Below, one piece after another: positions 59,593 to 60,462 of a DNA stretch of 64,000 nucleotides. The notes below the pieces were generated by a model that saw only the letters and a list, made by a program, of their open reading frames with translations, made no database searches and was not told where the DNA came from. The first letter of the stretch is position 1. Every line of letters starts with the position of its first letter. The translations under genes were made by a program, and so were the position numbers. The stretch comes from Anaeromyxobacter sp. Fw109-5 (GTDB lineage Bacteria > Myxococcota > Myxococcia > Myxococcales > Anaeromyxobacteraceae). The stretch covers positions 496,001-560,000 of the forward strand of contig NC_009675.1 of the NCBI RefSeq assembly GCF_000017505.1, read 5' to 3'.

Positions 59593-60255
59593 TCATCGCC
59601 CGGGACGCCGCAGGAGCACGTAGATCGCCCCTGCGCCGCCGTCCACCGGTCGCGCGGAGGCGAACGCGAGGACGTGGCGCGCGAAGCGGCCGGTGGCGAG
59701 CCAGGTCTTCAGGGCGTCCTTGAGGACCGGGAGCTGATCCTTCGAGTGCAGGCCGCGGCCGTGCACGACGAGCACGCAGCGCTTCCCGGCCTGGCGCGAG
59801 CGGCGCAGGAAGTCCTCCACCGCGCCCTTCGCCTCGTCGCGCGTCATGCCGTGGAGGTCGACGTGCCCCTGCACCGCGAACTCGCCGCGTCGCAGCTTGC
59901 GCGCGAGGTTCGCGTCGAGGCCGGCCGCGCGGCCCTCGATGAACTCGTCGGTGTCGGAGAGGTCGAACGGCGCGTCCCCTGCGACGAGCGCGCGCAGCTC
60001 GTCGATCGCCTCCAGGTCTGGGTGCCAGAACGGGCCCGCGGCCGGTGGAGGCGGCGGCGGCGCGGCCACGCCGGGGCCGCGGTCGAGCGGGCGCACGCCC
60101 GACGTCGCGCTCTCCCACAGCTCCTCCTCCGTCACCTCGTGGGCAGGAGTGGGAGGCGGGGGAGGGGGCGGCGGCGAAGAGCGCGGCTGTGCGGGGATCG
60201 CCTTCGCGCGCTCCTTCAGCTTGTCGAACGGATTGTTGAAGGGCTTCTTGCCCAC
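59593..60255 (-). CDS. Smr (MutS2-like) domain protein
   Basis: 220 residues from the GTG at 60255 (GKKPFNNPFDKLKERAKAIP follows). A Pro-rich linker (two runs of 6-8 Pro) separates the short N-terminus from the Smr domain: VQGHVDLHGMTRDEAKGAVEDFL (HGxT-like), CVLVVHGRGLHSK, LKDALKTWLATG and VLAFASARPVDGGAGAIYVLL. Smr domains are nicking or RNA/ribosome-acting endonucleases in MutS2/SmrB proteins. The stand-alone form here resembles SmrA/SmrB-type proteins of proteobacteria. The start is only 24 bp from the divergent CPXCG gene. Confidence 0.88.
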   Translation of the reverse strand: MGKKPFNNPFDKLKERAKAIPAQPRSSPPPPPPPPTPAHEVTEEELWESATSGVRPLDRGPGVAAPPPPPPAAGPFWHPDLEAIDELRALVAGDAPFDLSDTDEFIEGRAAGLDANLARKLRRGEFAVQGHVDLHGMTRDEAKGAVEDFLRRSRQAGKRCVLVVHGRGLHSKDQLPVLKDALKTWLATGRFARHVLAFASARPVDGGAGAIYVLLRRPGR

Positions 60256-60261
60256 CCGTCG

Positions 60262-60269
60262 ACTATAAC
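60262..60269. promoter_or_regulatory. symmetric bidirectional -10 element (ACTATAAC)
   Basis: Plus strand TATAAC (60264-60269) is 10 nt before the CPXCG GTG; minus strand TATAGT (60267-60262) is 6 nt before the smr GTG. No ribosome site exists on either side, so both mRNAs would be leaderless and start from opposite ends of one A/T patch. Confidence 0.5.
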
Positions 60270-60279
60270 GGCGGGCGCC

Positions 60280-60462
60280 GTGGACATCGAGATCCAGTGC
60301 CCCTACTGCGGCGAGTGGGTCGTCGTCTTCGTCGATCCCGGCGGTGGTGCGGAGCAGACCTACGTCGAGGACTGCCCCGTCTGCTGCCGGCCGTGGATCG
60401 TGCACGCGCGCGAGGAGGAGCCCGGCGGGTTCGCCGTGGGCCTCGCGCGGCAGGACGACTGA
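60280..60462 (+). CDS. CPXCG-motif cysteine-rich small protein
   Basis: 60 residues from a GTG. IQCPYCGEWV and YVEDCPVCCRPW give two CPxC pairs, which probably bind one zinc or iron. EIQCPYCGE near the N-terminus and VDPGGGAEQTYVEDCPVCC are characteristic of the CPXCG family of short conserved proteobacterial proteins of unknown function. No Shine-Dalgarno sequence; TATAAC lies 10 nt upstream. Divergent from smr. Confidence 0.8.
   Translation: MDIEIQCPYCGEWVVVFVDPGGGAEQTYVEDCPVCCRPWIVHAREEEPGGFAVGLARQDD

Follow-up and report, generated by a model that had tools for sequence, protein, structure and literature searches.

A conserved, compact two-way promoter predicted in the 24-bp gap between divergent smr and CPXCG genes of Anaeromyxobacter sp. 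Fw109-5

Results

The smr and CPXCG genes lie head to head across 24 bp

The window, the whole 64,000-nucleotide stretch of DNA that we analysed, covers C1:496001-560000 of the complete 5,277,990-base genome of Anaeromyxobacter sp. Fw109-5, which has a G+C content of 73.7% in the sampled part. The smr gene (59593..60255, minus strand), which encodes a 220-aa Smr-domain protein, and the gene for a 60-aa cysteine-rich small protein, CPXCG (60280..60462, plus strand), are divergent and are separated by a gap of 24 bp (60256-60279). The protein identities proposed in a first-pass annotation of this DNA stand (PF01713, E=2e-24, for smr; Cys_rich_CPXG, PF14255, E=2e-18, for CPXCG); in NCBIfam, the Smr protein scores under the cut-offs for both SmrA and SmrB. 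The sequence also confirms the geometry given there, with GTG starts at 60255-60253 for smr and 60280-60282 for CPXCG and -10 hexamers 6 and 10 nt from these starts.

By direct reading of the sequence, we found an eight-base putative promoter core, ACTATAAC, at 60262-60269 that can be read in both directions. On the minus strand, TATAGT (60262..60267) lies 6 nt before the smr GTG and scores 8.2 with a PWM for this genome, placing the predicted +1 on the first base of the GTG. On the plus strand, TATAAC (60264..60269) lies 10 nt before the CPXCG GTG and scores 7.6, with a predicted +1 at approximately 60275-60277. The minus-strand hexamer is the better of the two, as the important T at its final position (-7) is present in TATAGT but not in TATAAC. 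These hexamers had been described as one shared symmetric -10. A shared core is supported by its conservation, by genome-wide statistics and by the absence of other good -10 matches nearby; however, the hexamers do not coincide but overlap by four bases, the self-complementary TATA at 60264..60267. When we used this genome's upstream base composition to estimate how often a random 24-bp gap would have, in each direction, a -10 that scores >=7.6 and lies 5-11 nt before the start, we obtained P = 2.5e-4.

The core holds the only good -10 matches near either gene

The only TA dinucleotides within 59900-60280 are the two in ACTATAAC. When we scanned approximately 360 nt upstream of each start for good -10 matches (PWM >=5), we found only TATAAC for CPXCG and TATAGT for smr, with the exception of a marginal match, TCCAAT, 308 nt ahead of smr. 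We rejected a separate CPXCG promoter inside smr, as the ~360 nt upstream have no other TA dinucleotide. For smr, there is a weak -35-like CTCGAT (60286..60291, minus strand, spacer 18) within the first CPXCG codons; its score of 4.7 ranks near the 90th percentile of the leaderless promoters of this genome under a noisy PWM. For CPXCG, there is no recognisable -35, and the best score (-0.7) is below the 10th percentile of the leaderless set by the same noisy PWM. Because smr has a weak -35 and CPXCG has none, smr should be the stronger direction. Given its low -35 score and a last T that is absent in all relatives, the rightward direction could have only a weak or minor promoter. The CPXCG codons that contain the smr -35 are also constrained by the protein, and the conservation of this site cannot be put down solely to the promoter.

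Leaderless promoters appear common in this genome

To place the two hexamers in the context of the genome, we used 1698 starts predicted in 2.06 Mb by a home-made codon-usage gene finder that is blind to promoters. TANNNT is found 6-11 nt before 170 starts compared to about 24 expected (4.0 per position; 2.06 Mb). The count is 9 at 5 nt and rises sharply to 53 at 6 nt, a spacing that puts the first transcribed base on the start codon; outside ~6-11 nt it is near background. Behind a set of 120 TANNNT sites, we found a TTG-type -35 at a spacer of 16-18; since the -35 signal played no part in picking these sites, its presence identifies them as promoters of the ordinary kind. TATAAC or TATAAG is present 6-11 nt before the start of nine genes, CPXCG included, where 0.04 per position would be expected. 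Taken together, the TANNNT enrichment at 6-11 nt and the TTG-type -35 point to leaderless promoters that are common in this genome. Leaderless genes were reported in 8 of 33 delta-proteobacterial genomes, with a mean of 15.8% of genes in those (Zheng et al. 2011, PMC3160421), and in the literature that we searched there was no leaderless start map for Anaeromyxobacter or any myxobacterium. As a separate observation, GTG starts are over-represented where the strongest -10 sites lie exactly 6 nt before the start (18 GTG and 16 ATG, compared to 575 and 1079 overall; 2.06 Mb).

We then compared both genes with this pattern, as two leaderless mRNAs had been proposed. For smr the proposal agrees with the genome-wide peak: TATAGT is a TANNNT with a 6-nt gap, the spacing found in 14 of 17 family junctions, and the predicted +1 is the start codon. 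For CPXCG it does not, since TATAAC is at 10 nt and lacks the final T, and the predicted leader is ~3-5 nt rather than zero.

The core is conserved in the family and the gene behind it can change

To see which bases of the gap are conserved, we aligned 17 family smr junctions, leaving out the near-identical G005. We found that the core is kept across the family and that the remaining gap is variable. ACTATA, the plus-strand form of the smr hexamer, is present in 16 of the 17 junctions, with AGTATA in the remaining one, so that five columns are invariant and the sixth is 16/17; no flanking gap column is invariant, and the TATA shared by the hexamers is invariant in all 17. Of 18 family junctions, 17 have TATAGT or TATACT as the smr -10; the exception, G012, has both genes but a decayed element (CATACT) in a 21-bp gap. 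The distance from the smr -10 to the GTG is 9 nt in the three junctions, all from genus g6, that do not have exactly 6 nt. The plus-side hexamer of the relatives is TATAAC, TATAAG or TATATC, at 8-11 nt from the start, or, in G017, TATAGC, with a range of 6-11 nt over all of them, and in none of the 17 aligned junctions does it end in T. Because the aligned junctions are related by descent, these conservation counts are not independent events.

In a sister genus, g6 (G013, G018 and G021; L134, L135 and L136), an ABC-transporter ATPase gene lies behind the same GTTATAGT/ACTATAAC and CPXCG was not found in any of the three genomes. The ATG of this gene is 8 nt after TATAAC, and its product resembles that of the gene next after CPXCG in the window. 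In G017 (L128), CPXCG is apparently a short N-terminal remnant, and smr keeps TATACT at 6 nt. In a second family, f7, TANNNT lies exactly 6 nt before the smr start in L052, L054, L058 and L060, with different upstream sequence. The g6 exchange, the G017 remnant and the f7 sites suggest that the core belongs in the first place to smr and that its partner gene can be exchanged.

These same data bear on whether the rightward direction is used at all. TATAGT could be the -10 of smr only, the rightward likeness being a by-product of a palindromic TATA, with CPXCG transcribed from elsewhere or as noise. Such a one-way promoter would account for invariant bases that are exactly the smr hexamer, for a CPXCG hexamer that lacks its last T in all relatives and has no -35, for the loss or erosion of CPXCG at least two times and for the f7 genomes in which smr keeps its site and spacing behind other upstream sequence. 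It does not account for base 60268, which is just outside the smr hexamer and is A in 15 of 17 junctions, or for the 360 nt upstream of CPXCG that offer no alternative TA-containing -10. In addition, TATAAC/TATAAG is enriched genome-wide at a CPXCG-like distance, and in g6 the same TATAAC lies 8 nt before another gene. We consider a one-way promoter unlikely, though it is the strongest of the alternatives.

A proposed two-way promoter with smr as its main side

We consider it probable that the gap holds a compact two-way sigma70-type promoter whose two directions overlap on TATA, with smr leaderless and stronger and CPXCG weaker with a ~3-5-nt leader. RNA polymerase would bind in either orientation over the one self-complementary TATA. 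Leftward, with TATAGT as the -10, transcription would begin on the initial G of the smr GTG and give a truly leaderless smr mRNA; rightward, with TATAAC, it would begin ~3-5 nt upstream of the CPXCG GTG. Each direction would have its -35 region within the coding sequence of the opposite gene. The element would be primarily the smr promoter, and the gene on the back side (CPXCG, or the ABC-transporter ATPase in one genus) would make use of its symmetry. Counting against this reading are the predicted distance between the starts, which is not a preferred one in E. coli, the decayed element of G012 beside two retained genes, the low -35 score and missing last T of the rightward promoter, and GGAG-like sites near the CPXCG start in three relatives.

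With the best-scoring registers, the predicted starts are 21 bp apart. The rightward -10 could instead be read in the GACTAT register, in which the A at -11 of one direction pairs with the T at -7 of the other; this would put the starts 18 bp apart and give a CPXCG start at ~60273 with a 7-nt leader. Such a layout is the most frequent one in E. coli and Salmonella, and the A and T concerned are invariant; however, GACTAT scores only 2.7 with the PWM of this genome compared to 7.6 for TATAAC, and its 13-nt distance from -10 to start is one at which the genome-wide signal is at background level. We find this register improbable.

The smr frame is open upstream, as the first-pass annotation had said, to 60405, where there is a GTG. 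A start there, which that annotation had named as grounds for refuting its proposal and which would make the genes overlap and the element internal to smr, is very hard to sustain even though the frame is also open far upstream in many high-GC relatives, because there is no ATG, GTG or TTG in the smr frame between 60405 and 60255, G010 and G016 have in-frame stops upstream of the smr start, and f7 orthologues, whose surroundings are unrelated, begin at the same position, in several cases only a few codons after a stop. Directly after the smr start codon is a KKPFNNPF motif that is conserved across the order, including f7; a homologue match table whose query begins at the smr GTG is no evidence on this start. 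CPXCG relatives begin with ATG, GTG or TTG at the same place, and G010 and G016 have a stop just upstream. We also looked for a conserved ribosome site for CPXCG and rejected it: a GGAG-like sequence is present just upstream in three relatives only (G011, G016 and G020), and it would fall outside a 3-5-nt leader. If the two-way reading is right, it cautions annotators that open upstream frames in GC-rich genomes are no ground for extending starts across such gaps.

Predicted two-way leaderless gaps recur but are rare

A first scan for two-way leaderless gaps covered 241 divergent pairs in 2.06 Mb; among 289 divergent pairs in 2.46 Mb, there are two, smr/CPXCG and rarA/nadK. The rarA and nadK (NAD kinase) genes, which we named from their sequences and not by family search, diverge across ~26 bp, and TTATATAATG would serve both directions (C1:880966; L184). 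The rarA/nadK core is conserved in most of the family (relatives L185-L206). It is split in g3 genomes (L192 and L196), where each of the two genes has a separate -10 at 6 nt before its start. The two-way leaderless design is recurrent but rare. Where a partner is replaced, a partner is eroded or an element is split, these natural experiments allow us to ask which direction holds the element fixed.

We also observed that in G027, a genome of another family (L021, ~1473), CPXCG faces an aldo/keto-reductase-like frame across GTTATATAC. There, one start has a -10-like hexamer at 6 nt and the other at 9 nt; TATATA is the one 6 nt from the aldo/keto-reductase-like ATG.

Discussion

We describe a gap, ACTATAAC and its surroundings, that reads as a real, conserved and compact two-way promoter with predicted start sites. 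Symmetric -10 bidirectional promoters account for 19% of E. coli RNAs according to PMC12825309 and PMC10268837, which place their starts 7-25 bp apart, with 18 bp commonest and 10 and 23 bp also found; this literature allows small variations in the preferred distance. The opposite-strand hexamers of smr/CPXCG overlap, share the TATA at 60264-60267 and are conserved. With the bidirectional promoters of Warman et al. 2021, as these two papers describe them, the likeness lies in overlapping -10s on opposite strands, divergent genes and predicted starts within 7-25 bp. In contrast to that type, here the predicted start distance is 21 bp with overlap on TATA, not 10, 18 or 23, both mRNAs are predicted to be leaderless or nearly so, and the -35 regions lie within the opposite coding sequences. 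The word 'leaderless' is absent from both papers.

Leaderless genes are known to have TANNNT ~10 bp upstream of their starts (Zheng et al. 2011, PMC3160421), and -10 elements adjacent to ORFs are described in Deinococcus-Thermus (PMC12340547), in a paper from which the words 'bidirectional' and 'divergent' are absent. The likeness is that TANNNT sets the transcription start at or next to the start codon, as is common here; the difference is that here one element would serve two divergent genes. EcoRV-type restriction-modification promoters (PMC5333194) are also divergent with overlapping RNA polymerase sites; however, EcoRV has a controller protein and a controller transcript that is not leaderless, and no regulator is evident at smr/CPXCG. 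The ingredients, symmetric -10 promoters and leaderless mRNAs, are known, and their tight combination within 24 bp is unusually compact. A limited literature search found no description of the combined arrangement.

The shared element had also been said to force competition between the two genes, and this we cannot support. In the only direct tests that we found, none of five E. coli bidirectional promoters was strong enough at basal level to show measurable competition, and it appeared only when one direction was strongly activated (PMC12825309). Because these direct tests at basal level were negative, competition is unproven at smr/CPXCG, although the geometry would exclude RNA polymerase in both orientations at once.

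If the two-way reading is true, a 24-bp gap without a ribosome site joins symmetric -10 promoters and leaderless mRNAs, and, with both cores and almost no leader in 24 bp, two divergent genes would share a control region close to the minimum size possible. More tentatively, and with somewhat less than even confidence, we suggest that in leaderless-rich Myxococcota one self-complementary TATA may be a complete ~24-bp control region for two genes, its main side leaderless, and that the core may stay fixed while the genes are exchanged (CPXCG and the ABC ATPase, with rarA/nadK as an independent case).
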